IMG/VR virus record: IMGVR_UViG_3300035045_000495 | Span: 1-26,167 of that record | DNA length: 26,167 bases | Reading direction: 5' to 3' (one strand) | From: a virus | Shown here: positions 1 through 25,555 of the stretch, piece by piece | How positions within the stretch are numbered: position 1 is the first letter of the stretch | Layout: each line of letters starts with the position of its first letter | The notes under the pieces: generated by a model | What the model saw: only the letters and a program-made list of their open reading frames with translations | Databases searched by the model: none | What the model was told of the DNA's origin: nothing | Position numbers and translations under genes: made by a program

Positions 1-952
1 GGATAGAACTTGAAGCAGGAAGTTCAAGAATACCATCAGTATCAAATGATATATCACCAAAACCAAACTTTAGTTTCTGTGCACCAAGATCTACAGCACC
101 ATCTTCTTGTTCAGTAATTAATTTATTTTTAGATGAAATCTTAATATCACCAGATACTGCTAGTTCTTGTGTTTGGTTAGCAGTTCCTGTAGCACTAACT
201 GTAACAGTACCACGAGTAGCACCTGCTTCAGCAGTAAATGATGCAAATGTTGCTTCAATTTTATTACCATTAACATCCTCAATTTCTAGAGGTGTTCCCA
301 CTTTCATCGCACTAAAACGTAAACGAAGACCTTCTTCTTCTGTAGAGTTTTCTGACGCTAATTTAGATGTAATAGTACGAGTAGCACCTGTGTCTATACT
401 ATGAACAGTATGTGCTTTTCTCTTTCTACGAGTAATTTCTTGATCAGATCCTATAGAAATACCTGTATCATCCATCCAAATAGTAGAACTGGATAGATAT
501 AAATCCCTAAACTTAAGTGAGTTACTACCTAAGTCATATGTGTTGTCGGTGTTTGGTAGAAAATGAGTTGAGATAACAACGTTATTAGAACCATTGTTAG
601 TCAAGTTAGTAATGGCATTGCCCCCACCGCCACCACTACCTTGTAAGTCATCACCAGGTTGGAATCTTGAGTTTGCTGTATTCCATTTTAGTACTTGACC
701 ATTTCCAATACCAGTCAAGTCAACATCAGTCAAATTAGATGATGCCAGATCTCCTTCTGTAAATACTGTTCCATTCCATTTAAGGACTTGGTTTGTTGAT
801 GGTGATCCAATACTAACTTGCAAATTAGTATTATCACCAAGTTGGGTGTATAACTCGTTAATTACGTTATTAAGTTTTATAGCACCGTCTCTGAGGGTAT
901 CTCCTGTACCATCATTTGCCGATACACCGACGTTTACATTCTGCTTAGCCAT
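1..952 (-). CDS. Tail-fibre-like structural protein, N-terminal 317 residues (3' end outside window)
   Basis: An open frame starts at the ATG at 950-952 and stays open to the window edge, so the C-terminus is missing. The N-terminus reads MAKQNVNVGVSANDGTGDTL, a start I associate with tail-fibre or virion structural proteins of marine T4-like phages. Two short repeats contain QVLKWN (about residues 55-60 and 86-91). A Gly run follows at 105-111, then a YDLGSNSLKFRDLYLSSSTI motif at about 139-158, a type seen in beta-rich phage fibre shafts. The likely role is a virion appendage for host attachment; the receptor-binding tip would lie in the missing part. No Shine-Dalgarno sequence is visible before the start, but an exact NATAAATA element lies 24 bp upstream, so the gene may have its own late transcript. 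The reading frame is firm; 'fibre' is family-level inference. Confidence 0.8.
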   Translation of the reverse strand, partial: MAKQNVNVGVSANDGTGDTLRDGAIKLNNVINELYTQLGDNTNLQVSIGSPSTNQVLKWNGTVFTEGDLASSNLTDVDLTGIGNGQVLKWNTANSRFQPGDDLQGSGGGGGNAITNLTNNGSNNVVISTHFLPNTDNTYDLGSNSLKFRDLYLSSSTIWMDDTGISIGSDQEITRRKRKAHTVHSIDTGATRTITSKLASENSTEEEGLRLRFSAMKVGTPLEIEDVNGNKIEATFASFTAEAGATRGTVTVSATGTANQTQELAVSGDIKISSKNKLITEQEDGAVDLGAQKLKFGFGDISFDTDGILELPASSSI

Positions 953-976: not shown

Positions 977-984
977 TATTTATG
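977..984 (-). promoter_or_regulatory. T4-type late promoter element CATAAATA upstream of the fibre-like gene
   Basis: The minus strand reads CATAAATA, matching the NATAAATA late -10 element of T4-like cyanophages. It overlaps the TAA stop of the YHYH gene and ends 24 bp before the fibre-like gene ATG, so a transcript would have a leader of roughly 20 nt. The spacing is almost the same as for the element before gp25. T4-type late promoters need no -35 box. The 27 bp gap contains no terminator-like hairpin. Confidence 0.5.
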
Positions 985-2347
985 TCATATCGAAGGAAGT
1001 TGTCGAATTATCCAGTGTAAAGTTCTGTATAGTAAAGTCAGGGTTGTTATTATCCCTGTCAAAATTAACTGGAGTCATATCGTATTTTCCAATACCACTG
1101 TCAAATTTGAGGATACTGGCATAATCTATAGTCGTTCCACTACCTGTTACAGTAAGGATCGCCAAATTACTTATTAAAGGTGAGTTTTGTGCTTGAGTAG
1201 ATGCACCAACTGGACCAGTCAACACACATCTATAACGATAACCTGTCATAAATGGTTGAGCATTTATATTCAGTGTTGCTGATGTATTACCAGTTAAGTT
1301 AGACCAAGCAAATCCACCATCTGTTGATACTTGCCACTGATATGCAATAGTATCATTTTGTGGTTGTATTTCTGCTAACAAACTAAACTGTTGAAGGTTT
1401 CCACTTTGAATAGTAGCGTTTGTTGGTTGATTTGTAATTACAAGAGTAGGGGGTTGATCGGGAGTATCGCCACCATCATCAGTAGGTGGTGCAGTTTGTG
1501 TAAAACCATCATTGGCAGGTACTACCATTGCCTCTTTCGAGGTCAAACCCATCATAAAAGGAAATACTGGATTTCCAGAATTATCTTCAGTAAGAAAGTA
1601 TGCAAAAGTACCACTAGGATACTCAGGTGTTACACAATGTCTACCGTTATGTGTATCTAACTTTCCTGTTCCACCAGTATATTCATAATCTTCCATAAAC
1701 ACACCTGCGGGGTATGTTGTATCATATGCAGGTCTTCCAGGTGCTTCTTGAGTTCTTACTGTCCATCCAGAAGACATTCTGATTACAGGTGTAGTGTTAT
1801 CATTAGCATCTGTATATCCATAAGGACCATACACAGGATAACCATCAAAACTATAACCTATTATCTTAGAGTGACCATCAGGGTGTCTAATATTATCACC
1901 ATTATATTGAGATGAACCATAGTAATCATTATATCCTGCCATCACTTGATTGGCATTCCAACAATCTATGAAGTCGCTGTCGTTATAACGGTACTGACCA
2001 CTTGACTCAGGATACCCACCACAACTATCTTCTCCATAATTAACAGCAGAACCAATACCCGCTGCCACGTAGGAAAATCCTGACGGGGGCGACCCATCAG
2101 TTCCTGCACTAGGATTAAAGAAGACGACACCGTTTGCAGCAATACCAATAGCACCCAAACCGACAACCCCAGAATCAGACGTGTTTGATCCACCTCTGTA
2201 AACAAAGTTGTGGTTGAAAGCATATGATGTAATTGTGTTTGAATTGTTAGCATTAGGAAAAGTTCCTGAGTTCACTGGAGATGGCAAACCATCGCCAGTT
2301 ACTGTTAGGACATTATTGCTACTATTATAGGATCCATTTGCTGCCAT
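980..2347 (-). CDS. YHYH-domain and Ig-like-domain virion protein (455 aa)
   Basis: The gene starts 8 bp after the stop of the giant gene and is probably cotranscribed with it; no clear ribosome binding site is visible. Residues about 60-280 resemble a YHYH-family domain: a GHSKIIGYSFDGYPVYGPYGY block (His159 and following) and a DTHNGRHCVTPEYP block from about 231, followed by GTFAYF and FPFMMG. Where I would expect the family's YHYH motif, this protein reads FAYF, so the namesake histidines seem to be absent. An Ig-like domain follows at about 300-401, with an IAYQWQ strand and a Cys in YRYRCVL. The last 50 residues are Asp/Asn/Thr-rich and unassigned. There is no signal peptide or membrane segment. 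The same two modules occur in the giant protein upstream, which suggests a virion surface role and module duplication. The biochemical function of YHYH domains in phages is not known to me. Confidence 0.78.
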   Translation of the reverse strand: MAANGSYNSSNNVLTVTGDGLPSPVNSGTFPNANNSNTITSYAFNHNFVYRGGSNTSDSGVVGLGAIGIAANGVVFFNPSAGTDGSPPSGFSYVAAGIGSAVNYGEDSCGGYPESSGQYRYNDSDFIDCWNANQVMAGYNDYYGSSQYNGDNIRHPDGHSKIIGYSFDGYPVYGPYGYTDANDNTTPVIRMSSGWTVRTQEAPGRPAYDTTYPAGVFMEDYEYTGGTGKLDTHNGRHCVTPEYPSGTFAYFLTEDNSGNPVFPFMMGLTSKEAMVVPANDGFTQTAPPTDDGGDTPDQPPTLVITNQPTNATIQSGNLQQFSLLAEIQPQNDTIAYQWQVSTDGGFAWSNLTGNTSATLNINAQPFMTGYRYRCVLTGPVGASTQAQNSPLISNLAILTVTGSGTTIDYASILKFDSGIGKYDMTPVNFDRDNNNPDFTIQNFTLDNSTTSFDMT

Positions 2348-2355
2348 AAGAGTAT

Positions 2356-5300
2356 TTAGTCGTCGTCAAAGATTTGGGTAGGTGTGAAGGAACTGAGTGT
2401 TGTTGCACCGATGTTGACGGTAAGAACAGCAGCAGTTGATAGAACAGGGATTGCACCGTTAGATGTGATACCAACACGATATTCATCATTTGTATCTGCC
2501 TGTGTAGTAGCAGCAGTTGTATATGTAGAACTAATTGCTCCAGTGATATTGTTCCAACTTGATGTTCCATAATCTTTTTTCTGCCACTGATATGAAAGAG
2601 TTCCGTTGTTAACGTTAATTGCTGAACCCATATACTGATGATTACCACATACGTAATTAAGAGTAGCAGGAGCATCAGCAGCGACTGTAATGCTAACACT
2701 ACGTGTTGTAGCAGCATTAAATCCCGCAGCATATGTTGCGTAGTCTGCAACTTGATTACCGTTAAGACGATATACAACACCAGTCTCATATCTACTATTG
2801 CCACCATAAGCAGTAGCATCTTCACTAAAGTAAAGTGCGTGAGTAGCATTGGTAACATCGTTTTGATTAAACTGATATGTTGCTCCACGAACAAATACAA
2901 GTGTTGGTGCTTCAGTGCTTGAATTAAATTGACCACCAGTAAAGTTATAACCTTTTCCAGATCCTTGACCATAGTAAGGATGGTTAACAGACTTATCAGC
3001 AACATTAATTTGATAAGCAACAACATTAGATATTGTTACTTTTGCTGCAACTTGGAATGTAGCAGTCTGACCTTGGTTAACAGTAATATTTCTAGGTGAT
3101 TCAGTTATTGTTATAAAGTTCTCTATGACTCCAGTACCACCTGTTACAGGTATGAAGTTAGGATCGTAAATATCAATACCACCATTTAATGCAGGTCCTG
3201 TAGGTCCTAAGAAATCATCTGCAACAGTTGTATTTGCAACAATAGTAGGTAATGAATATCCTTGACCTGCGTTCTTAACATCAATTCTTGCTACACCAAC
3301 AAGTGCCTTAATACGTCCACCAAATCCTGTTGAAGATATAACATCAACTTGTGGTCTTGTACTATAACCATCACCAGAGTTTGTTAATATCGCATTTGTA
3401 ATACGTCCTTTTTCAATTTCAGCAAGTGCAGAAGCATTACGTCCTTTAACTGCTCCACCATACTCAAATGTAATTAGAGAGTTAGATGATTCAATAAGAG
3501 CAACTGTTCTTGTTTCTTCCTCACCATCAATGATAAGTTCATCACCTGCTTCAATAGGTGGTACAACTGTTGCTGCAATAACGTCAACATCAGAACCAAC
3601 ATAAGAGAATGCAACGAAGGTTGAACCTGCACGAGGAACTTCAGAGAAGATAATTCTAGAACCAACAATTTCAAAACCAATTCCAGGTTCCTGTATAACA
3701 CCATTTAACTGACAAATAATATTGTTCTCAGGTAAGATTGTATTTGATTGTACACCATCAGTTAAAGTCAATGAGTAGAACACTCCATTTAACTTTAAGT
3801 TGAATGAGTTACGTAATGAATCAAAGTCGAATGATATATCATCTAATTGTCTTAACTTACCTTTATATACACCGTGGAAAGTTGATCCTATAGCAGGTGC
3901 TTCAGTAAACTGTATGTTATCTGAGAATGCTGTGAATGCGTAGTCAGCACCAGGTGGTTGTAAGATACCATTCACAAAGATCATCATATGTCCTGCGGGA
4001 TCTGGGAAGTATTGTGTACCATTTCCTTGAGTTAGTTTAAATGCCTTTTGTACACCATCAAATCCTCTAAAGAATCTACGTACTCTACCTCTTAAAGATC
4101 TAGCAGATGAACAAGCACCTTTGAAACCATTGTCTCCAATAATTTGTGAGTTCTTCTGGAATGTTCCACTTGTTCCTTCTAAGTGGAGAACAGCACGAGT
4201 ACCAAACTGTGTAATCTTAGCAATCTTACCGTATGCTGTTGTATCTGTTATTGTAACTGCTGCAACTCCTGTATATACGGATGGGAATAGAGTTCCAACT
4301 GGTACTTTAGCAAGTTGATATTGTGAATTACTTGCAATATCAGAAATAGTTACACCTTCTGGAGTTCCAGTTTCATTTGCAACAAATACGTAATTATTAT
4401 TTGTATCAATCTCAGTAACAGTCACTGTCCAACCAATACTAATACCACCAGATTGAACCTGTAATACATCACCAACATTAAATGTATCAGTAACACCTGT
4501 ATCAGTAATTAACTGAACATATGTAAGTCTTGTAATTTGTCTACCGTGTACATACTCACCAAAATTAGGTAGAGTAACAAAAGATTCAATTTCAATAATT
4601 TGATCAGTAACAGATCCATAGATAACATCTTGGGGTTTAAACTCTCCAGTTACTGTGGTGATGTCGTAAGTGATTCTACCACTCTGATTATCAATTAGTG
4701 CACCGTTATTGTTTCTAACAATTAGAGCAGTTGCTTTAGATCCAGTATCTGTAGAGAAGAACTTATCAGTTGCAATAAATTCACCCTGACGGAAATTAAC
4801 AAGAAGTCTATCGTGCTCATCAGCAAATGTACAAGTACCACCAGATGTAACACCTTCTATAGTATCACCTGCTGTAAATGTTCCATTGTAATCAATCAAC
4901 TTAATATATGTCTCGTTATCAGTAGCAAGAACCTTACCAGTATTTTGAGTAGCACCTTGAACAACAACTGTCTCACCATTCTGAATCTTGATTCCAGTTC
5001 CACCACCTTGTGCAGAGAATGTATTACAGGTCATATATTTTGCCTGATACATAATATCTGCTAAATTATCTTCCATACGAACTATCTGAGCAGTAGCACC
5101 AGATGTTCCACCGTAGATAACATCAGCAAGGTTGAAACCTGCTTTGATTGGTGTTGGTACATCACGTGTTCCATAAGTTGTAGGTACACGATCTACACCT
5201 GGATCTACTTCAACAGCGAGTGTATGTAACTGTGATGCTAGACCTGGACTTAGATATATTGGTTCTCCATCAATATATTCTGTAAGAACTATCTTATTAG

Positions 5301-8300
5301 ATGTTGAATTAGGATGTACATAATAGGTTGTTCCATCAAGTTCTGGAATATTAGATCCTAGAACAATATAAGCAACTCTATCATATGGTTCAAAGTTATT
5401 AGCAACATTAATAACTCCATCATAAACAGCAACACCTGCGTCAAATTGTGTTCTTAAGTATGTTGTTGGGAATTGTGAGTATTGTAACGCAGTTAATATT
5501 AAGTGGAATAATTGATGTAACTTATGAGATGCAGTCGCAGTAGGACGTAATTCTCTATCAGGATTAGTTCCATCAAGTGAATAAAGAGGTTGGTTAGCAT
5601 TTACACCAGGATCAGGTGCAGTTCCTTTTAAGATATGATCCATCAACTCTTTAATCATTCTTGCGTGATAAAGAAGACGAGTTCTAAAGAGTGTTGGGTA
5701 TGCTACGAAATTACCATCAGCATCAAACCAAGAGTTAACTAATTGTAAAGTCCTAGCATTACCATTTGTAATGAAGTCATATACAATCGCTTTTTGTATT
5801 GGTTCAGCAAACGAAGCATCTCCTGCATAACCAGGATATTGATTTAAAGTTTTCTCATATGATTCTAATCGAGTATATGTGTCATTGTATATTAATAATC
5901 TTGCAGATTGTTTATACATCTCTGTGCCACTTCCAAGACCGTGAAGAAGTGTCTTGAATAGTACGTGTGCAGCAGATGTGACATCGTAACAAGTTCCACC
6001 TTTATATACAGTGTTGTTAGTGACAGGTGCAGTTCTGGTTATAGTTGCAAGATGACTACCATTTCCTTGAGCAGCAGTATCAATAGTATTAATAAGTATC
6101 TCCCAAAGGGTATTAATCGCTGAACTCTGTGTGGTGCAGTTTCCGTTACCTGCTGAATCGTAAGTTATAGAAACGTCACGTCTAATAGCACGTTCACCTG
6201 TAAGTGGCCATTCGAGTGGTAATGTTCTCGTAATTCCATTTAGATATGCTGTAGGATTACTTGTATTACTACTATCAAATAGATTGATAGGAATACCCAT
6301 TAATGTTGTTATAGACGCTGCTTCATTTACACAACGAACTCCACCACCACCAATAATAAAGGTTATAGCATTAGTATTAGCACTTACAAAGTTGTGAGGA
6401 TGATTACCACCATAAGATACAGCACCAGAAACAGCACTTACAAATGTATGTGGATATTGTTCGTTTGTAGGTGCAGGGTTTACATTAACCTTAATACGTC
6501 CATTCTTAAATCTAACACCTCCAGGTGCAGCAGATATGAATGTATGAGTGTAATTTCCACCTGCACTTATTGCATTTGTTGCAGCATTTACAAATGTATG
6601 AGTAGTTACGTTAGTAGATGGGATTCTTCCAGATGCTAAAACATTAACTGTAATAGTTGTTTGACCAACTGCTTTTACTTCTAAAGGAACATCATATGCT
6701 CTATCTTTCTTCCAAGTAATATTATTTGTAGCAGAAGAAACATATGTGTGTGGTGTTGTATTTGTTGAAGGTATTCCAGTAGATAATAAAACTTGAACTT
6801 TAAATGTATTTGCAGTTACATCTGAAATTTCTAACCAAGAATTAGCAGCAGGGTCAGTAGCACGTGGATATGTATGATTTGTTTGATTGTTATCTTGACC
6901 ACAAGTAAATGTTAGAGAATCAGTTGCAATCTTAATTTGATCACCATTCGCAAATCCGTGTTGAGGAACAGTCAACTGCATCATACCTGTAGTAGGTTCA
7001 TATACAGCAGCAGTGCTCTGATGTATTGTAGTTGTTGTTCTAGGATATGAATGCTCAGTAGCATTATTATCTTCTAAACAAGTAAATATTAATGAATTAT
7101 CAGCAATCTTAATGTGTGATCCAGGAACAAGACTGTGATTACCGATTGTGATAACCATATCTCCTGTAGTAGGACTGTAAACAACATTTGATGGAGTATA
7201 ATTTAGAGTATTTGTAGAACCAACGTTTACATCAAAAGTATTTGTAGCAACGTTGCTGATTGTTAGATACTGGTTTGATGCAGGATCACTAGCACGAGGA
7301 TAAGAATGTACACTATAGTTGTTATCCATTGTACAAGTGAAGTTCAATGAATTATTAACAAGTCTTATCTGATCACCATTACTAAATCCGTGTTGAGGAA
7401 CAGTCAGGGTCATAGCACCAGTAGTAGGTGAATATGTTGCTCCTGTTGCTGTAAACGCAGAATCACTAATTTCTAAAACTTCTAATGATTTACCACTAGC
7501 ATAGTCAGTAGGACGAGGATATGCGTGGTTAGTAGTATTACCATCTTTTGTGCAAGTAAATGTTATTGCATAATCTTGAGAGAACTTAATATGTCTTCCA
7601 ACATTAAGATTATTTGTACCAATATCTAAGAATAGATTACCAGTTGCTTCTTCATATATTGCATCAGTAACATCGTGAGTTCCGTTAGCAGTAGTTCCTA
7701 CATTTACTGTAAATGTATTTGTAGTAAATGCTGTAACTGGTAATAAAGCACCGCTAGAAGGATCTAATGGTCTTGGATATGTATGGTTTGTTGCATTACC
7801 ATCAAAATCACAAGTAAATGTTAATGAGTTTTGAGCAAGTTGAATACTATCACTTGTAGTTAAGTTATGACCATTAACAGTAAGTCTTAAATTACCTGTA
7901 GTTGGGAAGTATTCTACATTTGTTGGAGTTAAGTTACCAACTGTTGTATTAGTACCATCAATAGTAATACTAGAATCATATATTGCACTTCCTTCTGTTA
8001 CACCATTAATTGTAACAATCTGCTGTCTCATTATTTGTATTGCAATATCTCTTGCTTGTTCAAAGATATATTTAACTTCTGCTGCTTGGTTACTAATATG
8101 CTGTATAGCATTTCCAACTGTAATATAGAACTCACTTGAATACCACATACGGTTGTTACCACCGTGCTTTAAGTTGAATACTAATGCTTCAAGTAAATCT
8201 ACAACGTCATCAACACAAGACTGATAATTATAACCACCAGAGAATGCCAAATTAGGATACTGAGACATACCACGACCAACAGCAGTTGTAGCGATAAATC

Positions 8301-11300
8301 TTATATTATTTTCAATTTCATTTGCAGCATCATAGTAACCATTGGTTGTAGCATTATTATAGTAATCAGGTCTCTGTATTGCTTGTCCTAATCCACCTGT
8401 TGCTGCCTCACTCTCATAGGGAGTAAACCCTAAACGGTTTCTGATGGTTAGGATTGACATATCTCTTGCTAACTTAAACGCATAGATTGTCTCATCAGAT
8501 TGATTAGTTACGTGACTTAATGCTAAATCAGTATTTAAGTATAAAGCAGCAGCATCATATGTCTCGCTGTTACCACCAAAACGTAAATCGTGTGCTACAG
8601 ATTCGATGATGTCAACAATATCATCTTCACAGTTAACTTTACCACCTGGAACTCTAAACTTCTTAGATTGTGCAAACGATGTTTTAGTTAGAATATCAAC
8701 TGCTTCACCTGCAATGGTCTTAGCATTTTGCTGTAAAAGATTTGCAGCGTCAAGATCTCTATCAGATCCAGTATATGCTTTAGGATCTATTGTAATAGTA
8801 TCGTCACGATAAACAGACTCATCTGTGTATAACATCTGATAGTAATCAGAGAAATCAGCAGCGACTTGAGCAGGGTTCTCATTTCTACCAATTAATAAAC
8901 CTTGTATTGCTTTTTGTGCTAACTTCTTAGCATATTCAATAGCATCAATCATTGCAAGCAATTCATCTTCAATATAATTGATATTAGTCTCATTATCGAG
9001 ATAACTATCAATCATTGCTTGAGTTTCAAAGTTACCACCTGTAACCAAGTCACCTGCAATAGCAGGAAGTATATGATCTCTAATATCTCTTACACATTTT
9101 GCTCTATTAGGTATTGTTAGTTTATTTACTGTTGAGAAACCAACTTGTACTTGATATTTGTTTTCAATATAATATACTGCTTCATCAGCGATTGCTTTTC
9201 TATTAAAGTAAATTAAATCAGCACCATCTCTAAATCTATGACCTGTAGGACCTATAACATCTAATAGATCATCTACAAGAGTCATAATATCAGTTTGTAT
9301 CTGTGAAGATGCAGGAGATGCAAAATAATTAGGAACACGAACTTTAGTTGAATAAGTTCCTTCTAAATCTGCTTCATCTAATGTAATTACATCAATACAA
9401 AGTTTTGCAACTTCTCTCCAAGTATAGATTGATTGTAATTGCTCACCACCAATATGTTGTAATGCACCAGATCCTTCAATGTAAGCACGACCAACAATGG
9501 TTGTTTGGAAGTTACCACCTGATATAAGATCGTCAATTATAGCAGGAATAATATATGATTTAGTATCACGTAGACAAACATTAGATCCATAACCACTCAT
9601 ACCACCATCACCAGGGATGACAAAATCAGGGTATCTATACTTAAGACGACCAACTGCTTCTTCAGCAATATAGTCAATATTCTTACGTATAACTTCAGCA
9701 CATATTCTATATTCTTCACGACTAAGATCAACACCTTCAGTTGTAAGTTCAGAACGCCATAGCTCAACTTCATCAGCAGTAGCAGTAGATATTATATGAT
9801 TAACGTATGTTGCATATACTGCACTCTGTTCCATAGGGAATGGTGCTTCACCAAGAAGTGCGAATGATACATCTGTACTATCGTTAAAGATAATAGGGGG
9901 AGTAAAACTACTATTGTACTGGGAAATTCCTTTGCGGATTATAAGATTATCAATCCAACCATTGAAAGGATTACCATTGTTCCATCCTGCACCAACAGTA
10001 ATCTTACTATTTGCATTATAATTGTTTGTATCAGTGTATGTACCCATCTGCTGACCATTTACAAACAGTTTAGTAACACTTGTAGAACGAGATACTGCAA
10101 TATGATACCAGTTATTGATTGTAGTAATAGCAGAACTAACAGTAATTACATCACTAGCACCTATAGATAAGCGAAGTGACTGACCAGACATCAATATACC
10201 TAACTTAGTGTCAGAAGATGACTCTCTAAGATCAATAAGTCTCTGTGTGCCAGTAACAGAAGCAGGACGTATCCATAATTCCATTGTATAGTCACCAGTA
10301 GCAGCATCTGCTCCATCACCAAATAATACAGCATTACTTGATGGGAAAGTAGCATATGAACCAGATCCAGTAAATCTAAGTGAACCAGAATCAGTTTTAA
10401 ATGTTAATTTATCTTGAGATACGTTTGCATATGTAAGTTTAGAGTTGGTTATGTACTCACCTGCTTGTAATACACCACTAATCTGTTTAGAGAAGATCCA
10501 CTTGTTACCTGCATTAGATCCAATAACATCATATGTTGCACCTGATGTAACTGCTCTTACAGTATCACCAAATACAAAGAATCCACCAGATGATTTATCT
10601 CTATAAGCGTGTTTAGCACAACGTAAAGTTTCTCCATCCACAAAAGCATAAGGAGGAAGAACACGAGGTACATTAGTAATTGCCCACTGATATGTTGCAG
10701 GAGTGCCACCTGTAGGATCCTCTAGAGTATCAGTAATGATTCTCATATAGGATGTTATAGCATTTGCCTGATTAACACAACTGTTAGTATATCCTGCATA
10801 CGCTCCAGAAGGTGCAGTCTCAGTTACTGCTGCTTCAAATGCTGCTACTGTTCCTGGAGATGCAGTTGATCCAAGATTAGTAATCAAAATATTCATTAGT
10901 GTAGTAATTGCTGATGCAACTGCCTGACAAGTTGGGTTTGCAGGATCAGCGGTTATAGATGTATCAGTTACTTGATTCCAGTTATGAGATCCTGCTTTTG
11001 TCCAAGCATTATTTCTCATTACTTCAATAGCAATATCTCTTGCCTTAGTAAAAGCATCTACAATAGTATCTCTATCACCAGATGTTACACCATACTGTAG
11101 AGTTTTCTTAGTTGCTTTATATACAAAGTTATTACCACCGTGTGCTAAGTTATAAACCATCGCTTCAAGAACATCAACAATATCAGATAAACAATGAACA
11201 TCTCCACCTGATACGTTATATCCTGGATTTTGTGTTTTAGCATAATGTAATGCTTCATATGCAATGAACCATTTATTAGCAAGAATTAAATCTCTTGCAT

Positions 11301-14300
11301 CACCGTGACTATTGCTTATAACAGCAAACTCTTCTGTGATAGTAGGATCTCTATATTGAGGTAGATTAGTGGTAGTTGTATTAATAACTTCATTGCGGAT
11401 ACACTGTATCGCTAAATCACGTGCTTTGTTAAATGCGTATATTGTTTGTGCTACTTCACCATCAACGTGATATATTGCATTACCCTGTACATATGTACTA
11501 GCAGCATCCCAGATTTCTGAGTTACCATCAACTTCTAATTGATATGCAACAATATTTAAAATATCTACAATATCATCTTCACAATCTCTATCTCCACCTA
11601 ATGATGGAACTACAAATGATGGGAAAAATGCCTTCATTAATCCAACTGCTTCTTCAGCAATGAATCTAGCATTCTTTCTTATCAATACAGCAGCATCAAA
11701 TGAACGTTGATCGTCTACACCTACTAATGAAGCGTTATCATAGTAGATTTGTTTGTTACGTATTGAGTCACCTGCTGCAAATTGTGATCCTGACAGATAA
11801 TTATATCTAATTTCTTGGTTTCTTACCTCTTCAAAGTCTAAGAAGTCTTGGTTATTAGCAGTTCCCTCTTCATATAGTTCTTCTGGATTGATAACTGTCT
11901 CAGAAATATTGTCTAAGATAGTATTTGGATAGGTAATTGAAGGAACACGTTGGAAAATTAGACCAAAGAATGATGATGGAGGTGATAAATCAACAGTATC
12001 AATGATTTGTTGAGATACATCGTCTGTATATGGTGCAATTACAGTAACTCTTGCAGCAATTTTAGATGCAGCAGAGTATATTGTGTCGTTAAATTTGATA
12101 TTAAAGTCACCAGTTTCAAATTCAGATGTACCAGATGTACGAGAAACTACCAATCTAGCGTCTACAACACCATCTCTAAGGTTATTTTCTTCAATAATTG
12201 CAAAATCACCTTGTAAATTTGTTATTCTTTCACCTTGTTCGTAAATTGTTTTGCTAGTTAAACCAGTTACAGCACTTAATGTACCATCAAATCCACTAGA
12301 TGACGCTAAAACATTGTCACCAATCTGGAAAGTACCTTCTACATCGATAACATCAATGTAATCTACACCACTATCAATGACAGTTGCAGTTCCCTCGTTC
12401 TGTAAAGACCTTACAGGTTTACCTGTTTGTGGGAAAATACCAGATGTTGTACTAAATGTATATCTTATAATATTAATTTGAGAGAATGTAAGATTTCTAA
12501 ACTTAATTCTTGATGGTGCTTTAGGTGGTTCTGAGAATACAACAGATGGACCAGATGTTGTGAATGCAGTTCCAGGTGACTGGGCAACACCGTTAATAAG
12601 AATCAATAATTGATCATCAGTTGCAGTTACAGATTCACCTTCTACAGTCAATGGGAATTGTGTTTTAACACCATTAAAGTCATTATCAATATTATCAAGT
12701 TTTTTAACAATAGAAGTTAAGATTTCTTCAGAGTTAGTAAGTCTTCTTTGTCTGAATAATACTTCAGTGTTATTAAACTCGGTATATATTGGTTGTGAGT
12801 TAGCAAAAGATGTAATCTGATTAATATTAGTAGCACTAAAGATATTAACTTCTTTAACAAGATCAGATACAACCTTTCTTCCTGATATATCTTTACCTGC
12901 TGCAAGTGCCAATTCACCAAACATATTGAATCCAACTGGGTGATTGGTTTCAAGAATACTCTTTCTCCATTCGTTAATAGGAGTTTGTGATTTAATAACG
13001 TAAGAGAAGTTCTGATAGAAGTAAGAGTCTTGAATTTTCTGTACAATTTCAGATGGTTTACCAATGTCATCAATAAACTGACCAGTAGTGGTTGTCATTG
13101 AGTCTATATTCAATGTACCACGAGCAATAGATAAGTTATCAATCAAACCAGATGCACGAGATACCTGTGCAGTTACACGTTCTCCAACAGTCCAATTTCC
13201 GTTATAGTTTTCAAGTTTTAATATACGAGGACCAATCTGCCAACCTTCATTATCTGAAACGTAACCTGTTGCAGTAGCAGTTTCTAGGGATGAACCTTGA
13301 TATACAAGTTCTCCTTTTAAGAAACGAGATGTTTGTACAATAGCAGTTGCTTGACCACCAAATACTTCAGTAAGAAGAATCTGACGACCATCACCTTGAG
13401 TTAAGAATGTAATAAAGTTACCAGACTCAGCATCAACTTGTGTTAGTGCTATTCTAAGTTGGTCTGCTTCAAGTGAATTTGCCTCACCTGCAATAGCATA
13501 GTAAGTGGTTGTAGAACTTAAACTAACCAAACCTGCTGAACTTGGTTTTGGTAGAACACCAACTGTAGATCCTAAATCTTCTGCTCTAAGTTGAACAGCA
13601 GCACCAGTTGTAATACCGTGTGGGAAGTTAAACTGTAAATATCCTAAATCAAGGTTTACAACATAGTTAAATTCTGACTTAAGTGTAACTGATGGTTCAG
13701 AACTATATCCAGATCCAGGATTTTTAATTATTATTTCAGATAGTCTATTATTTTTAACAATCGCTTCTGCTTCAGCACCTGATCCACCACCACCTTCAAT
13801 AACAACTCTAGGAATTGATGTATAACCAGAACCAGGATCTGTAACCTTAATTTCAGAAAGTATAGCAGTATTAAACAACTGAAGGTTTACAGGGAATGTA
13901 ATCTCAGGTCTTAGTGTATAATCGTGAGAATAACCGAAACCAAATTCATTATTTTTAAGTTTCTTAATCTTACCAATACTTGTACCTTGTAAGAACACAG
14001 ATGCACCAGATCCCTCAGCAGGAATTACAACATCAAGTTGTCCACCAGAACCTTGTAATAGTGATCCCAATATTCCTGGAATAGTATCAATATCAATAGA
14101 TGCAGTAGTATATCCTTTACCTGGAGATGTTAATTCAACAGCAGTAATAACACCTGTTAATTCACCATCATCTGCAACTGTAATATTACATAGACCACCT
14201 TCACCATCTCCTGCAATAGGAACATTATAATAGATGCCATTAATGTATTCTGTACCACCAGATATGATACGTATTTTCTCAATTTCTCTATCAGATGATA

Positions 14301-17300
14301 TATCAGTAACAATAGGTAATTTCTGATAGAAACCACCTGGGTTTACCAGTTTGATACTTGCAATAGGACCAATCGCTTTTAGAGAAGTTGTACTATAAGA
14401 TGCTCTTGTAAGACCTGTTTCAGTTGTTCCTAAAGGAGCAGTTGTTTTTTCTGGTTCTACAAGAAGTGGGAATGTAAATTCTGTATCTGATAATATCTGA
14501 TTAATATTAAATGTTCCTTTATAAGGAGTTTCTATAACGTCAATAAATGATGCTTCACCTACAGGAGAGTTACTTGGAAGAGTTCTTGATGGATCGAAGT
14601 AATATGAAATATTGGTAACATCTTCATCAACAATAAACTTAACAAGTGGTTTAGGTGATGTTTGGTCAGTTAAACCTGGGATACCCTCTCTAACAATGTT
14701 TACAAAAGGATATTCTAATTTATATTGATTATCCTTAGAGAACGACATATAATATCCAAAATTAGATGGATCATCAAGGTCAAATATGTATTGATGTTTA
14801 CGAACAAATAATAATTGTGGATGTTTAGCGTAGATATTAACACTTGCAATAGTAGAACTTGTAAATGAAGGATCTTGTACAGCAGTTGATCTTAAACGAT
14901 ATAAGAATCTTCTACTATCAAGAACCTCTTCTACAAAGAATGATCCACCATATTCAGTTGTTGTAAATCCTTCAACAAATATAATTTCGTTTTGAGTAAA
15001 ATTATGCCTACTTGTAGAAACACAGAATACTAAATCTGTAAATGCTAGAGCACCAGTTGGAATAATATCTTTATCAAGATTCGATGTAAGATGGAATTTC
15101 TTAACTCCAACTAAACCTGATATTGTTATTATCTTTCCAGTAGCATCGAATGTTGCTGAAAGACCAACAGCGTCAGCATCAATGTTATCACCTTTAATAA
15201 ATGCTGATCCCTCATATACTGCTTCAATTCTAATTGAGTAATCTGTTGCTACAAATGGTCTCCAAGAACCAAATTGATTTAATGTTCCACTAGAATATGA
15301 AGTATTTGCAAGATCTATATTAAAACTACCTGCATCACGAGTATATACCCAGTTTATATTTCCATCAGTTACTGTACCAATCGTATGAATAGGAGCACTA
15401 GCACCAGAAACTCCAGTAGAACCTGCTGTATAGATCTTACCTGCATTATAAACTTCATCTCCAGTTGTATAACTGAAGTTTGTAAACCATTGAGGTATAG
15501 TTGTTTCAACTAAAAATGTTTGATTAATAAGGTTTACATCATTTGCAGTTGATTTTAATTTCTTAGTAGTATCAAAATTACCAATAATATTACCAATATC
15601 AACCTGTCCTTGTGCTCCACGAACATTTACAATAGTACCGTATGCACTGACTACATCTTGTCCACCAATAACTGAATACTGTTGTAATATAGAACCTTTA
15701 GTAAAGTTTGCTGTTTGGTTAAATGTTACTGTCTTTACAGTATCAATAGACTGATATATTGCATCACGAATATAGAATTTAGGAATAACAGTAGTGCTTA
15801 GTAGTAGTTTTCTACCAAGAGGTGTTGGGATAGTAGCAGTTCTAGTCTCATATATCTGATCTGTAGACGTAAATGAGTAAGTTCCTTCAACATTATTTGA
15901 TACAACATCAGCATAATCAAGTATTTGTAGACCCGCAGGACCTAATGTCCAATCTCCAGAAGTAATCACCTGGGTATTAAACGTAAAGTCGTTCACAGCG
16001 GCTGCGACTTGAATCTGCATACCAGTTTGAACGGTGTTTAATGTATATGTTCCAGTCTTAGTTTGTTCTCTATCTAACTTGTAGCAGAAAGCAGATACTG
16101 TTTTATTAGAACCAACTGCTTGTGCAGGAGTAAATGTATCACTATATTTTGCAATACCTGATACAGAAATATTATCTACCCAACCACCAATAGAACTAGC
16201 GACAACAGGAGATGATTTACCAAATAATAGTATAGATTTAAGTTGTGTATCTATAGTTGTACTTGTTACATCAATTTGTTCAACACCATTGATGAATACT
16301 TTATAAACGTAAGTACCAACACCAGGAGTTGACTTAACAAGAGCAACGTGTATAAATGCTTCGTTATTAAATGTTGTCCAGTTAGTTGTGGTTGTAGATA
16401 GGTAAGTATTAGAACCTAACTTTAAACGAACTTTACCAAAATCAGGACTTGTAGCATCACCTTCTAGTTCTACAACTGCATTATCACCTGTAGTAGGAGC
16501 AACATCAAAAATATTTGGTGTAGAACTTTGAGCATTGTATTGTGCTTGCCCAATAGCGATCCACGCTTCAATAGTATAATTTGTTGCTACATCAGCACCC
16601 CAGTCTAACGATAGTCTATTCGCAGCAGCACTGATATTTGCTGACTGTGCACCATATTTCCATTTAGAAGTATCTAATGTAGGATCTACAGACCATCCTG
16701 CTGTTAAAGTATTATTATATGTTTCATCTCCAGTTATAGTTGATTCAAAATTGAGTATTGCTAATTCATTAGATTCAATTTTATTACCTGCAATAATAGT
16801 ATCACCAGAATTATCGTTACTAATTGTAGTTGGTTGGAAACCAATACCACTAACCTGTTTTACAGAAGCAGCAGTTAATATATTACTTGTATTCCAAGAA
16901 ATCTTGAATATGATTGCTCTATGATCATTGAAAGCATATTTAACGTATGCACCAACATCAATATTACCAAATATATCAAATTTAACTCCAGTTGATTGTA
17001 TATCTTCAAATACACCAGTAGGTGAAAGTAATTTAACAACTGATGGAGTTTTGTAATCACTAGGTGCAAACTTCATATACAAAACACCAGTATTCTTGGT
17101 ATTAGAAATTTGGTATGCAGTTGCAGTTACGTATCTAGAACCATAGTCATCAATAGTAATTTTAGGATTAGAGAATCTATATCCAGTATTACCAAACTGT
17201 CTACTCCAAGAAACGTTAATAGTTACATTATCATAGTTAGTTTCACCAATAATAATTTCACTCGTTCCCGCAGGATCATTAACACCAACAAATATACAGG

Positions 17301-20300
17301 TGTTATCACTTGTAAATTTAAGGTCTGTTAATTGTTCTGATCCTGATGCAGTACATATCTTACGTTTTTCTTTAATAGCACCCTGTTCATCTAACAAAGC
17401 AATCCACATATCATCTGGATTTGGAGAGTTAGTATCTGTTGTACCACCAACGTATATTTGACCGTTATCATCTATAGTTAAGGATGATATATAATCTCTT
17501 CTTGAAGAACCAGATATACCTGCAATTTCACGTTGCCATACAGGAACAGCAGTAGGATTGTTCTGTGCATCAAATCCAGAGGTATATTTGGCAACAACTA
17601 GGTCTGGATTGTATGATAAGTTGACATTATTAGGAATTGTTTCACCAACAACGTAGATAGAATGTGGTGATGTGTTTTCAAGATAAATTCTGTTAAATAC
17701 ACAACGTTTATCTCCCGCAGCAGGTTGTAGTGGTGCCATTGTACGTGTCCACAACAATCTACCATCACTATTGAATTTTGCAAGTAATCCTGCTGAATCT
17801 CCATCAACATCATCTGCTTCACCGACAACATAGAATGTTCTATCATCAGCAGTAACAATATCTTTAAGTTTTACTATTTTCTCAATACCACTACTCTCAT
17901 CTAATAATGTAAGAGCATAATTTGCTTTTTTATATCTTTGTGGATGACTTACTCTAACTTCTGGTGGATTGCTAGGTGTATATTCTGATCCAGAGTTAAT
18001 AATATTAACTGTATTAACAGCACCAGATTCAAGTTGTACAAGTTCTAATTTAAAATCTTGACCAGTTCCTGTAACAATTTCGTAAGTTGGTGGAATATCA
18101 TCATTATATCCAAGACCTTGTTGACTAATATTTACTGTTTCAACACCAGATACAACTTTTACTCTAAATGTTTTGTTTGTTTGATCAATAATAGGAATAC
18201 TATCAACAATAATTTCATCATTAACTCTTAAATCGTGTTCACCAGTAGTTGTAATCTTTGCTAACGGTGAATCATTAACCATAGATGAAGTGTACTGACT
18301 GACATCAATACCTTTTACAGCATTTACTTTAGCAGATGCACCATATCCACCAGTTCCTGTATCGTCAAAGAACAACTTATCATTAACTTTATATGATATA
18401 CCTGGGTTTTCAACTACAAATCCACTAATTTTAGCATCTTCAAATTTAGTAGTAGTATCAATCTCAATATCAACCTGTGATCTAGTAGATACACTAGGGT
18501 AGTAATCAAATAATTGCAGTACAGGTTCTTCTGAGATATAATTTAATTCGTTTTCTTCTTCTGTTGATATAACACCATCTCTGTTAGTATCTTCTATTTC
18601 AAAGATAAACTCGTCACCTATCTCAGTTACAAGAGTATCTGTATCTTGGTTAGGTGTACGTTGAATATCAATGTCAACATCTTCATAAGGATCACGGAAT
18701 CTAACAACATCAAGAGGAATATTGGTTTGTACAGCATCTTGACTATAGTTCCATTCGTCAGGTCTTGAATATAATTGTGGTCCACAGACATATGGGAATA
18801 CAGGTAAACCTGCTTCTGATGCGTCAATGGAAACAAAATAAGCATAAGTTCCTTCAGGATATTCAGGTGTCTTACAATATCTACCATTATACTGATCTAA
18901 ATCACCTGCTTGGAACACATACTCATAATCTTCTATATAAGTTCCTGCGGGTTTGTCTGATAATAGTGGTCCATCAGCACGAACTGGATTTGGATTGGTT
19001 GCACTGTCAAATAATAACGCAGGTTTTACTCTGTAAGAAGATACACATCTCTTAATACCAGATGACTGATCAGCAGCATCAATATAACCATATGGTCCGT
19101 ATATTGGGTTTCCATCAAATGCCCAACCAATAATAGGAGAGTGTCTTAGTCCTGCTGAAAGTTCTCTAAGATTTCCTGATGATGGATCTTTAAATACATT
19201 ATCACCAAGAACATAACGTAATTGTTTAGGATCTGATAAATGTGCATATTCACCACCATATTGTGTGTTATATCCTGCAAATACATAACCACGAGAAGGA
19301 TCCATTAGTCCTGATAGTTCAGTTTCTAAGTTCTGTGTCCACTCAAATACATTTGCAGTAAATGATGCACCTTGACCAATAGATTCACAACGAATAGTTG
19401 TAAGACCAGTTGAATATCCTATACCTCTGTTCTCAACAGTAATACTTAAAACACGTCCTTTATCTTCACCAAATGTTCCTATGGTTGCTTTTGCAATAGC
19501 ACCATAACCATCACCATTAATAATTACATTAGGAGGAGATGTATATCCACTACCTGAGTTAATAATAGCGATTGATACAATACGACCATTGATAATAATT
19601 GGTTGTGCAACAGCACCTTCACCAGAATTTAATTTAATATTAGGTGCAGTTGTATAACTTGATCCTGCTGTATCTACACTAATAGATTGAATAGGACCTC
19701 TTACCTCGGCAGTAGCAGTTGCACCTGTTCCATTGCCTCCTGAGATGCTTACAGTAGGTGCTGAGGTGTACCCTTGACCAGGTGTTTCAACAAGAACTTT
19801 ACTTACAACTCCATTTGTAATAACAGCAGTTGCAGTAGCACCAAATCCACCTCCACCAACAATAGAAACTAATGGAGATGAGGTGTATCCAGAACCACCT
19901 GCTGTTACATCAACATTAAATAAAGAACCATTTACAACAACACTAGCAGCAGCACCAGATCCACCACCACCACTTATTTCAATTAATGGTTTAGAAGCAG
20001 CGTCATATCCTTCACCTGCATCTACAATATCAAAACTTGTAATTCCACCAAATTTTGTCTTAATTTGAGACTTATAAGACCAAACAGCAACACCATTTAC
20101 CCAACATCCAATAGGACCAAATGATAAATCATCACGACGTGATACAGTATCAACAATTCTAGGAAATCTACTTAACTTTCTTTGGTTTCCTGGGAGTAGA
20201 GCAGACCCAATGAACGGACCAACTTTATAGTTTGGAATACCTGTTGTAGCAATATAAGAGTAATTTGAGTTGAAGAACGTATTTTGTACATTAGTTGTAA

Positions 20301-23300
20301 ATTGTGCGATAGAGTTATTGATTGATTCTTCATCTGATTTACCTTTATTAAGGTCAACAGACATCAAAATGTTACCTTGAGGTGAATTAGGTGCAGGAGC
20401 AGATATTTGATATGAGAATACAGTAGCACTAATACGAGAAGTTACAGAAAACGTACCGTTAAATATCGTTGGGTTTGCACCATAGATTGTTACAGAGTCA
20501 CCAACAAGAAGACCGTGATTATTTGTAGTGTAAACAGTTGCAGTCTGGTTATTAAGACCACCTGGTTCAATATTGTTTACAGAGATTAATTTTTTAACAT
20601 TATATAACCAAGATGTAACTCTCTGATCTGTAGATGAAGAACCAAGAGATGCTACGTTTAATTTGTCACTAGGAAGATAATATGAACCAGTATCAGTAAG
20701 AACTGTTCCTGTTGCTTCAGCAATACCAAGAACACGTAATTTTACTTCAGTATCTAGTCCTCTATTGATATAACAGAAAATATCAGAGTAAATTGGAGTA
20801 CCAGAATCCCAATCTTCTACAATACCATTTTTAGAACGTGTACACTCAATAAACTGGTTTAATGATTTTTCTTTATATTGTATTCTTTCACTATCACCCA
20901 TAATGATGATACCGTTTCTTTCTGGCCACCCAATAGTAGAGTCAACAGTTATAATAGACTCAGTTGTCGTTAGTGGTTCTACAAGAGTGGTTTTATAAGG
21001 TATTGAGAACTTACCTTCTAAAGTTTCCTCAGATATTGATAATTCATAGATTGTTCTATCACCAGTGTTGATTGCAATAACGTTTTCAACTAAACATACA
21101 GCATTTCCAACAGTTGTATCTACAGCATCTGCATATTGGAATAATTGAGAGTCTAAAATATCAACTGGATTACCACTTATCAATTCAACACGAATAATAG
21201 TGTCAACAGACCAAGTTGCAGCAGATGGTTTGATTAATTCATCTTTTGGATATGAAACATCAACATTTTCAGAGAATAATATTTTAAATAAGTATTCTGT
21301 AGCAGTTTTTGTACCTTTAGAGACATAAAAGTCTTTAATTGTCTTAACAATCTGTGGAGCGTTGATTGTAGTGTAATCAATATCAGCATCAGGTAAGAAT
21401 TGATTTACAAAACGTTCATATAGTGTTTTTGCAAATAAAGAATCTAAATTTTCTATAGAAGTTCCAACTTCGTGTGAAGATTGAATACTTTGTGCTTCAT
21501 TAGTAAATACTTGGTTTCCTCTAATATCATATGAAGAAACACCAGAAACTCCTCTTTTACAATTCTTAAATTGTGATGGTTGATATTCAGAACCGTGTGA
21601 ATGAACTGTAAAACCAGTTATTTCTTGAAATCCAACATCACAAGACGCTGCTGCTGCTTTTGGACTTGCGATAAAGACTTGTGGAGGTTCAGTATCAGAA
21701 TATCCATCACCAAAACTTGTTATATTAATATCAGTAATTTCACCATTGAATATTGTTGCAACAGCAGTTGCTCCAGTTCCACCTATTGCTTCACCAGATA
21801 AATTCTTTCTATTATCAACAATATAAACAGATGGTGCATCATTGTAACCAGATCCACCAGTTAAAAGTTGAATATCAGTTAATTTACCACCAGATACCTT
21901 AACATCAAGTATTTGAGCACCTATAGGATCAATAATACGACATCTAGGAGGAGTTACATATCCTCTACCAGGAGAAATCATTTCAATCCTGTCTACTCTG
22001 CTCTGATCATCTAAAACTGCTATGGCAGATGCTCTAATACCAATAGGATCAACAGGAGCATCAATATAGACTTCTGGAGCAGTTGTATAATGTAATCCTT
22101 TAGTTAATACTTGGATAGATCCATCAACTACCTTTCCTTCCGAGTCAATTTGAGCATCACTAATAGTTGCACCTGCTGCATTTGTAAAACTAATGGATGG
22201 AATAGTGTCATATCCAGATCCAGATGATTGTACGTTAATTCCTGTGACTTGACCAGTAGCATCATCAACAGTTACAGTTGCTTTTGCTATAGAACCAGAA
22301 GGATCTGCGGGTGTATCAAATACAACTACAGGAGGGTTAGCAGAAGTATAACCTTGACCACCATCAATTAATTGTACATTCTTAATACCATTTACAAGTG
22401 CTTCAGCAGTCGCTTCTTTACCAGTTACACCTTCTGGAGTAAGAATAGTTACTTTTGGTGTGAAATTAATTCTATAATCTTGACCACCATTTTTTACAAT
22501 TAAATCTGTAACTTTATTATCACTAACTCTAGCAATAGCAGAAGCACCTTTACCAAATTGAGGTGCAATTAGTTCAACAGACCTTACAGTAATCTTATCA
22601 TTTAAAGATACTGCTTTTTTTAGTATTAAATGATCATTATAAACTGTGTAGTCAGTAAATGGTTCTTGAACCACTCCATTTACAGCAATCAAACAAGATA
22701 CTGTAGATAAAGGTGTATATACAACAGTGTTTAACCTTAATGGAAGTATTTTTGCACCTACAAGGTCGTCAGTTATATTAATTACATCTAAAACTCTAAC
22801 AGGAACACTTGTATAACCTATAAGATATTCAATCTTAGTTACTGTAGTTGATCCTGCAAGGTTTGCAGGAGGAGTTTGGAATCTAATGTTTGATCCATCA
22901 AGAAAATAATCAACATTAGGTTCTAACTGCAAACCATTTATTATAACACGTAAATACTCAACAGAACTTGGTGTAATTGGAGTTCCAAGTAGTTTTAATT
23001 GGAAACTTGTTTCAGTTCCATCAAATAGAGGTCTTATATTTTCTAACTCTTGTATTTTCTTATCAAATTCTAACTTATTGACACCTGGAGTAAATACAAC
23101 CTCTGGTGATTTAGTTGTTTCTTCATAAAAAATAATTTCATTATCAATCTTTATTGTTCCATCTTTCTCAAGAAAATTATCAACAGTTTCTACAGTAATA
23201 TTTTGATCAGTAGCACCTATGCGATCTAAAACAATAGATGATGAAGAAATAAAGTTAGGATCATATTCGTCACTTGAAATATCTGTATAACTTAAAATAT

Positions 23301-23461: not shown

Positions 23462-25555
23462 TTAGAAGCAAGTGTCAAACTCAGGGTATTCAAATACCGT
23501 GGTTGGATAATCAATTATATTTATCGAGGTTCCGTCAAAGTTAATTGGAGTAAAGTCTAACGGATCGAAGTTTGGAATATTAGTTCCATCAATGGTGTAA
23601 TCTATAGTAATTACTTGTGGGTTGAAAATAGTAGGATCTACACCAGTTCCTATATTTACATTACCACTATCTAGCAGAACTGTAACAGGAATACGTGTTG
23701 TTCCATCAGGAGTACTTGCTACGTCTATAGGACCTAAACAAACTTCTCCAGTTTTATAATCTACGGTTCCAACACCAGATTTAAGAATAACTTCTTTTTC
23801 ATCAAGTTTTGTAACCATTATCAAACTACCTCTACCATCATCTCTTACGTTTACTGGTAAAAGTGCACTAGCATCATTTTCTACAAATGTACTGATACTC
23901 AATACTGAGTTTGTAGTTAGTTGTTGAGATGATACAGCAAGATCTAGTAAATTTTCTGTATAACCTGTTGAGTAGAATGTACCAGTCTTTACTGATGAGA
24001 AATTAGGACTACAAGTTATTCCTCCAGATGAGTCAGAAGGATTACCTGCACCAATATCACCAGGATTAACTATGGAGTTACCAAAGTCTACACACTGAGT
24101 AAATGTGCTTCCAAATGGGAATCCTGTAACATTTAAACCAAGAGTCATAGTGGTTTGATTACCAACTATGGAATTTTGTGACTGGTCGATCATTGTTTGG
24201 AACGCAGATCTATCAATTCTTCCATTAAATCTATTTGCAGATCCTTGAGTATTGTACTCATCAATAGCACCTAGAACTCTAGAAGCAAGTTCATTATTAG
24301 AAAGTGTTGTTGAAGTACCATCAAAGAACACATAAGTCTTAGGACGTATGTATAGAGTTGTAGGATCGATAATAACTGGTTCGATCGCTGCCATAGAGTA
24401 TTTCAACAAATCATTCTTAATACGCTTCTTAGTAGTTGCGTTTAATGCAGCACCAGACTTAGTTTTTACAGCAACAAAGACCTTTCCGTAAACTGGTGGA
24501 TAGATTCTTTCTCCACCATATGCAGTAACAGACTTTGCTTGAGGATAAACCAGTTTAGTAATGTATTCATAGTCGGACTCCGTGACTGCTCTGTTTTGAG
24601 CACTGAATGCCCTTGGAGCATTGTACTTGATGGATATAACATCTTCTCCCATTTCACCGTCCTGAGAGGCATCTACGGTCGCTAGAGAGATGTTAGCAGA
24701 TGATACAGCACGACCAGTATTATCTCTTACTTGACCTATAAAAGTAAACTTCTTACAACCATTTGCTTCTGGTCCATCTGTTCTAACATATTTCAGTCTT
24801 ATAACCTCACCTGCAATTAGTTCTCTACCAATAACACCATCACCAAATATAATTGTATATCTTAAATCGTCAGTTTCTTCTAAGAAATATCCACGAGTTG
24901 TTCCGTCAACATTAACAATATTTGTAATTTGGTTATAAGTGTCAATCTCTTCACTCTGAGCGTTAGGTGAAATAGACACATAAAGTAAGTCTGTATCTAT
25001 GTTGTCAACAGGAATTTCATATTTTCTTTTTTTAACATCAACAACATCATACTCATATGAAAGTAAGTTTCCTTGATATATGATTGTTTTGTTAAAAGAT
25101 GCAATACCAGTCTGTTGATCTACCATTTGAGTGATCTGTTCTGGAACAGTAAATGTAAATGCTTGACCATCAACAGATGAAACAAATACATCACCCGCAG
25201 GAATAGTTACAGTAGATGGATAAGTGGTACTAGCACCAACAAATGTAGTTTGTACAGAAAAAGCAACACACGCTTTTGCTGCTTTTATTGATCTAGGTGT
25301 ATAATTTAACTGTTTTGCTATCTTTACTACGTTGTCTCTTATTGTTGCTGACTCTAAAAATGCTTCGTTCATCGCCATATTAGCGTTGAAAGCAGAATAA
25401 TATGTATTATATGCTAGTACGTCTAGTAGATATGAAGCAGCAGAACCTTCAAAATCGTAATCAGTGAACTCAGTTCGAGTTCTCATATAAGATTTGATAG
25501 ATTCTTTTATTTCCGAAAAATCTAAAGAAGTTAAATTTGAGGGTATTGCGGGCAT
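23462..25555 (-). CDS. 6: Baseplate wedge protein gp6-like (baseplate J-like), 697 aa
   Basis: This is the T4 gp6-type wedge protein, which as a dimer links neighbouring wedges into the baseplate ring. Visible family features are the N-terminal TDYDFEGSAASYLLDVLAYN and TYYSAFNANMAMNEAFLESA blocks (residues about 30-70), FGDGVIGRELIAGEVIRLKY at about 236-255 and NAPRAFSAQNRAVTESDYEY from about 310, the hallmark of the baseplate-J-like core. The length is close to T4 gp6 (660 aa), with a longer Phe/Asp-rich C-terminal tail. The ATG at 25553-25555 follows the gp25 TAA directly; a GGAG 9 bp upstream (25565-25568), inside gp25, supports this start. The two genes are very probably translated from one mRNA. 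Confidence 0.93.
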   Translation of the reverse strand: MPAIPSNLTSLDFSEIKESIKSYMRTRTEFTDYDFEGSAASYLLDVLAYNTYYSAFNANMAMNEAFLESATIRDNVVKIAKQLNYTPRSIKAAKACVAFSVQTTFVGASTTYPSTVTIPAGDVFVSSVDGQAFTFTVPEQITQMVDQQTGIASFNKTIIYQGNLLSYEYDVVDVKKRKYEIPVDNIDTDLLYVSISPNAQSEEIDTYNQITNIVNVDGTTRGYFLEETDDLRYTIIFGDGVIGRELIAGEVIRLKYVRTDGPEANGCKKFTFIGQVRDNTGRAVSSANISLATVDASQDGEMGEDVISIKYNAPRAFSAQNRAVTESDYEYITKLVYPQAKSVTAYGGERIYPPVYGKVFVAVKTKSGAALNATTKKRIKNDLLKYSMAAIEPVIIDPTTLYIRPKTYVFFDGTSTTLSNNELASRVLGAIDEYNTQGSANRFNGRIDRSAFQTMIDQSQNSIVGNQTTMTLGLNVTGFPFGSTFTQCVDFGNSIVNPGDIGAGNPSDSSGGITCSPNFSSVKTGTFYSTGYTENLLDLAVSSQQLTTNSVLSISTFVENDASALLPVNVRDDGRGSLIMVTKLDEKEVILKSGVGTVDYKTGEVCLGPIDVASTPDGTTRIPVTVLLDSGNVNIGTGVDPTIFNPQVITIDYTIDGTNIPNFDPLDFTPINFDGTSINIIDYPTTVFEYPEFDTCF
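23518..23525 (-). promoter_or_regulatory. Possible internal late promoter GATAAATA for the giant gene
   Basis: The minus strand reads GATAAATA, an exact NATAAATA match, inside the last 65 bp of the gp6-like gene and 75 bp before the giant gene ATG. It could give the 21 kb gene its own late transcript. It is less certain than the other two because it lies in coding sequence (encoding Ser-Ile-Asn-Ile-Ile) and farther from the start. Confidence 0.3.

Follow-up and report, generated by a model that had tools for sequence, protein, structure and literature searches.

A cupredoxin domain with a predicted type 1 copper site nested in an Ig-like domain of a giant marine T4-like baseplate protein

The window analyzed here, a whole stretch of 26,167 bases that makes up one virus record, encodes a 7,028-aa baseplate protein in which an Ig-like domain is split by a second domain. 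We consider it probable that this second domain is a genuine cupredoxin with a complete type 1 ligand set, inserted once near the C terminus of the giant protein; it may act as a copper-binding contact module on the virion surface. Blue copper proteins are familiar from electron transfer in cells and as parts of enzymes, and our search of the open literature on phage tails and cyanophages found no report of this domain. The wider finding, that a blue-copper-type module recurs in the baseplates of marine T4-like phages, seems to be undescribed in the literature searched.

The giant gene (2356..23442, minus strand) is a single open reading frame in the gp7 position, preceded by a gp25-position gene (25556-25969, minus strand) and then a gp6-like gene (23462-25555, minus strand; PHROG 219 baseplate wedge, E 1e-193), and the C-terminal part of its product matches PHROG 701 (virion structural protein) and PHROG 708 (baseplate wedge). 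Next after it come a gene with YHYH and Ig domains (980-2347, minus strand) and a gp9/gp10-like gene cut by the window edge (2..952, minus strand; PHROG 677, E=4e-28). Gene order and homology point to a baseplate or virion structural component, and the adhesin proposed in a first-pass annotation of the sequence is hypothetical; that annotation also put the domain at the far end, which agrees with its location near the C terminus of the giant, although a receptor-binding tip there would be equally hypothetical. The closest gp6 relatives are from cyanophages S-SZBM1 and P-RSM6 (57-58% identity), whose giant genes have the identical placement behind gp25 and gp6, and a cupredoxin match in P-HM2 lies inside the annotated gp7. 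The window protein shares its gene neighborhood and its Ig and YHYH partners with the giant gp7-position and YHYH-domain proteins of cyanophages, but P-RSM6 and S-SZBM1 have no insert at the site. Longer contigs, including one that measures 112 kb, contain stretches identical to the record. Four related contigs from the clade that carries the insert yielded no psbA, so we put a cyanobacterial host no higher than likely.

In work on pelagimyophages and cyanomyophages, T4 gp7 is absent, with VrlC apparently in its place, and YHYH domains are described in the structural operon, while cupredoxins go unmentioned (PMC7029224). YHYH domains, predicted elsewhere to be metal-dependent hydrolases (PMC7824862), are frequent partners of the phage cupredoxins. 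By eye, a YHYH-type motif stretch (GWAFDGNPIYGPYGY) can also be read at giant residues ~1425-1560 (window 18763-19170, minus strand), a second one besides that of the next gene, and at residues ~5160-5680 (window ~6400-7960, minus strand) an FTC...H-x-YPR motif recurs through a tandem array (e.g., FTCGQDNNQTNHTYPR), possibly another Cys/His-containing repeat.

The inserted domain covers residues 6806-6946 (2605..3027, minus strand; interval 2603-3020, residues ~6808-6947, in the first-pass annotation). It is flanked by a first Ig half with strands A, A', and B (residues 6772-6805; 3028..3129, minus strand) and a second half with strands C to G (residues 6947-7014; 2401..2604, minus strand), the latter delimited by the alignment of the halves and by the model described below. 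With the last 347 residues of the giant as query, two kinds of homologous locus were retrieved in which the same flanks are covered, through 1,041-base matches with the insert and ~620-base matches without it. In translation, the empty loci read "...VNQGQTASFTVIASTTPAGG-VINYQWQKKDYGT..." and the window locus "...VNQGQTATFQVAAKVTISN-[domain]-NNGTLSYQWQKKDYGT...", with the two flanking motifs spaced 13-20 residues apart in empty loci and 154 in occupied ones. Among 78 rows (homologous loci and isolates), 60 have an empty Ig site, including P-RSM6 and S-SZBM1, and 18 an occupied one. Because these 60 relatives have the same Ig domain unsplit at that point, the cupredoxin is nested in the Ig domain, as had been claimed from the separation of the flanking strands; the Ig paralog encoded by the next gene (1133..1456, minus strand) is indeed continuous.

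A 243-residue model (m81065b6e36df, pLDDT 92.6) has Ig strands A-B before the insert and C-G after it, which places the insert in the predicted B-C loop. The best structure match of this model (Z 13.3), spanning model residues 4-243 with only 96 aligned, comes from the capsid reconstructions of phages Moo19 and N4, in which it is one chain; many eukaryotic Ig domains follow. MAFFT applied to whole empty-site Ig rows together with the nested protein misplaced the N-terminal Ig half, and the halves were then aligned separately. On a tree of all 78 rows built from the flanks only, there is a single change between empty and occupied (support 88), and the outgroups are empty. Given this single change and the empty sites of P-RSM6 and S-SZBM1, one gain, by insertion into the Ig B-C loop, is the simplest history.

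The isolated domain is likewise predicted to be a cupredoxin. Its AF2 model (m3616a0467116; pLDDT 91.5, pTM 0.86, from 45 sequences) has cupredoxin topology, with a Greek-key beta-sandwich that agrees with solved cupredoxins. The leading solved structures in Foldseek (AcoP, rusticyanin, two-domain laccases, ceruloplasmin, CueO, and CuNIR) are copper proteins or non-copper kin (factor V), at E values down to 7e-4 and modest TM-scores of 0.35-0.44, which agrees with the cupredoxin-like fold first suggested for this region. The top Foldseek matches, AcoP and rusticyanin from Acidithiobacillus ferrooxidans, with low TM-scores, are respiratory electron-transfer proteins of an acidophile. By VIA-align, the best structural match is the cupredoxin domain of the Hyphomicrobium three-domain CuNIR (2dv6, 6tfo; Z 10.0, rmsd 2.6, 109 residues, 23% identity), which, unlike the window domain, is part of an enzyme, is not nested in an Ig domain, and has no phage link. 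In the model, the first His comes before strand 68-71, the Cys ends strand 125-130, and the second His and the Met lie in the loop ahead of strand 138-143, an arrangement like that of cupredoxins; together with the alignment, this topology suggests a predicted ligand geometry in which the four residues would cluster around one site. A BFVD search with the same model also matched predicted proteins of giant viruses (pithovirus- and marseillevirus-like) that are labeled "beta-sandwich proteins" (E about 1e-9).

The link of the window domain to cellular cupredoxins runs via profiles and fold. In single-sequence searches, the domain alone has no useful match in Pfam, NCBIfam, or PDB, and against PF00127 it gives no match at E<=1, short of the gathering cut-off. 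The best relative in the window family reaches E=1.1e-3 against PF00127, and single family members score E 0.001-0.04 against models of PF00127, plastocyanin, and amicyanin. The family profile weakly matches copper oxidase (E 0.017) and CuNIR (E 0.065), the CTLHPWM of the latter being aligned to the phage C-x2-H-x2-M. Direct hhalign comparison of the family with cellular PF00127 gives 79% with a wide profile and 11.5% with a narrow one. Phage cupredoxins of a second kind, found in gp9-like genes, act as a bridge: they align with the window family at 98.3% and with cellular PF00127 copies at 90.1%, ligands aligned in both cases, when represented by a profile of three phage copies and two other cupredoxin sequences (L168, L171). 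A phage-only gp9-type profile searched against solved structures ranks amicyanin first (E=2e-4), ahead of CuNIR and plastocyanin, and gp9-type members reach E 0.005 at best against PF00127, the window phage's own copy scoring 14.1 bits against a cut-off of 21.2. By virtue of this bridge and of the amicyanin match, homology to cupredoxins is supported by sequence as well as fold, and the profile similarity that the first-pass annotation had named as a check on its proposal was found. Unlike amicyanin, the window domain has no PF00127 match of its own, and its first His and its Cys lie farther apart. Plastocyanin has HN at the first ligand His, in contrast to the HAL/HPL of window-type copies, in which no Asn directly follows.

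The predicted ligands, assigned from the sequence and its conservation, are His6868 (2839..2841), Cys6932 (2647..2649), His6935 (2638..2640), and the axial Met6938 (2629..2631; Gln or Leu in some relatives), all on the minus strand. Translation of the minus-strand frame 2356-23442 puts all four exactly where they had been reported. They share the C-x2-H-x2-M spacing and the ligand order of amicyanin, a member of the plastocyanin/azurin family (PF00127), and Cys6932 is the only cysteine of the domain. The type 1 ligand order claimed earlier is retained widely: H, C, H, and M are invariant in ten copies from different protein contexts with 36-84% identity to the window copy, and 55 non-redundant copies with the columns covered comprise 45 with HCHM, 2 with HCHQ, 2 with HCHL, and 6 in which the ligands are lost (EGTL/NGLT/NGTL in 3, YCYY in 3), both His and the Met having gone jointly. 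The type 1 copper pattern (HCH plus M, Q, or L, in order) is therefore present in 49/55. One alignment left out ligand-less copies, so that the H/C/H invariance in it is partly a product of selection; the 55-copy count takes all copies.

Gln and Leu are natural axial replacements in blue copper proteins, Gln being typical of stellacyanin-type and Leu of fungal laccase-type sites. Both variants occur in the phage family, whereas the window copy has Met; natural examples with Gln (CHHHTGQ/CHYHTGQ) or Leu can be read at L067 825-1247 and L078 5731-6174, and in L126 and L133 near 2480-2960. When the ligand columns are left out of the tree, the loss of both His falls into two independent events, and no row lacks just one of them; the two Gln copies group in a single clade, and the two with Leu stand apart from each other. 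Joint losses of His and Met, together with Gln/Leu changes confined to the axial position, are the pattern expected of a metal site, unlike one kept for packing.

This pattern bears directly on an unlikely reading in which the domain is only a scaffold, a structural beta-sandwich spacer with ligand residues retained for packing rather than metal. Decoration domains of the beta-sandwich kind abound in phage tails, and the same phage family includes copies devoid of the ligands, one of them within the same giant: a cupredoxin-like stretch at residues 2871-2906 (14725..14832, minus strand; profile match E=1e-4), also present in the P-RSM6 and S-SZBM1 giants, has no His or Cys at the ligand places. 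The existence of such copies indicates that the fold can serve without metal. Packing alone would not lead one to expect, however, what the trees and counts show, namely two independent events in which both His and the Met went together, no single loss within H/C/H, and solo changes restricted to Met to Gln or Leu. Cys6932, as the lone cysteine, could in principle form an intermolecular disulfide that locks baseplate parts, with the His and Met residues incidental, and the tail of another phage is reported to be stabilized by a disulfide network (PMC10811340); yet both His and the Met share the conservation of the Cys, and one of the joint losses (YCYY) retains the Cys alone, which makes this the least credible reading, a very unlikely one.

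The metal might also be Zn or Fe, used in the virion for structure or for Trojan-horse-like receptor mimicry. Assembly takes place in a cytoplasm with little free copper, and iron-binding tail-fiber domains are proposed for another marine phage (PMC11705849). The set of two His, a Cys, and an axial Met, with its Gln/Leu variants, on a cupredoxin fold is nonetheless the pattern of copper, and we hold another metal to be improbable, somewhat more so than a bare scaffold. Copper binding by the inserted domain is strongly suggested.

On the reading that we prefer, a copper-binding cupredoxin module, we infer the metal, its loading, the surface exposure, and the role as follows. The cupredoxin domain would stand out from its Ig domain at the surface of the virion and bind one copper ion, acquired at or after lysis and not in the copper-poor cytoplasm. 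Apo-cupredoxins can take up copper without a chaperone, which makes loading on or after lysis probable. The bound copper would make the ligand loop rigid in an accessory module, one that may contact the host surface or adjacent baseplate parts. An exposed accessory or contact module is the most likely role, with a pure scaffold or, more speculatively, a redox or copper-delivery function as possible ones; taken by itself, contact with the host surface or with neighboring baseplate parts is a tentative proposal, to which we would give rather less than an even chance.

A cupredoxin in such a protein had been expected to be unusual; instead, marine T4-like phages commonly carry the domain. A search for its window type gave 262 matches in phage records (E<=1e-3), almost all in marine cyanophages and in genes labeled gp7, baseplate wedge, tail-fiber, or hypothetical, and it is found in 255 IMG/VR stretches; a genome collection yielded one match, in a Flavobacteriales MAG. 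The gp9/gp10-like gene of the same phage, complete in locus L199, has a second, C-terminal cupredoxin outside the window (17575-17904 of that locus, minus strand), with HCHM ligands and reading TYDFNNTTGSSHPLR...YYQCTIHSSMNGTIEIR. This gp9-type cupredoxin, from a gp9-like tail-fiber connector, is nearer amicyanin in sequence than the window domain and is found in 331 cyanophage records. A second kind of nesting occurs in S-ShM2 (L083 2950-3423) and S-SSM4 (L085 2950-3417), where a cupredoxin splits a YHYH domain.

In a sister clade (L021-L051, L065, L067, and L069), the cupredoxin lies in the YHYH and Ig gene after the giant and not in the giant itself. The next gene lacks a cupredoxin in all 18 occupied loci, whereas 30 empty loci have one there and 19 do not, and no locus among those read has it in both genes (stray rows P0002-P0004 being left out of the occupied/next-gene tally), counts that are not independent because they come from only two clades. 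Together with the next-gene copy of the sister clade and the gp9-type copy of the same phage, the window domain belongs to an exchangeable family of cupredoxin modules carried on the baseplates and fibers of marine T4-like phages. A further proposal, that these virions bear many blue-copper centers, gp9-type ones constant and others exchangeable, and would be copper-bearing or redox-active particles for host contact, tail triggering, or copper delivery, seems to us doubtful, though less so than a bare scaffold.

The comparison of empty and occupied sites provides a clear case of domain insertion and of hopping between neighboring virion genes. The conservation of ligand sets in virion proteins of marine phages that are very abundant leads to a directly testable claim, that these virions contain copper. 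If true, this would tie phage baseplates to marine trace-metal chemistry, would put names to domains in proteins so far annotated just as baseplate or hypothetical, and would be a copper counterpart to the idea of iron in phage tails.
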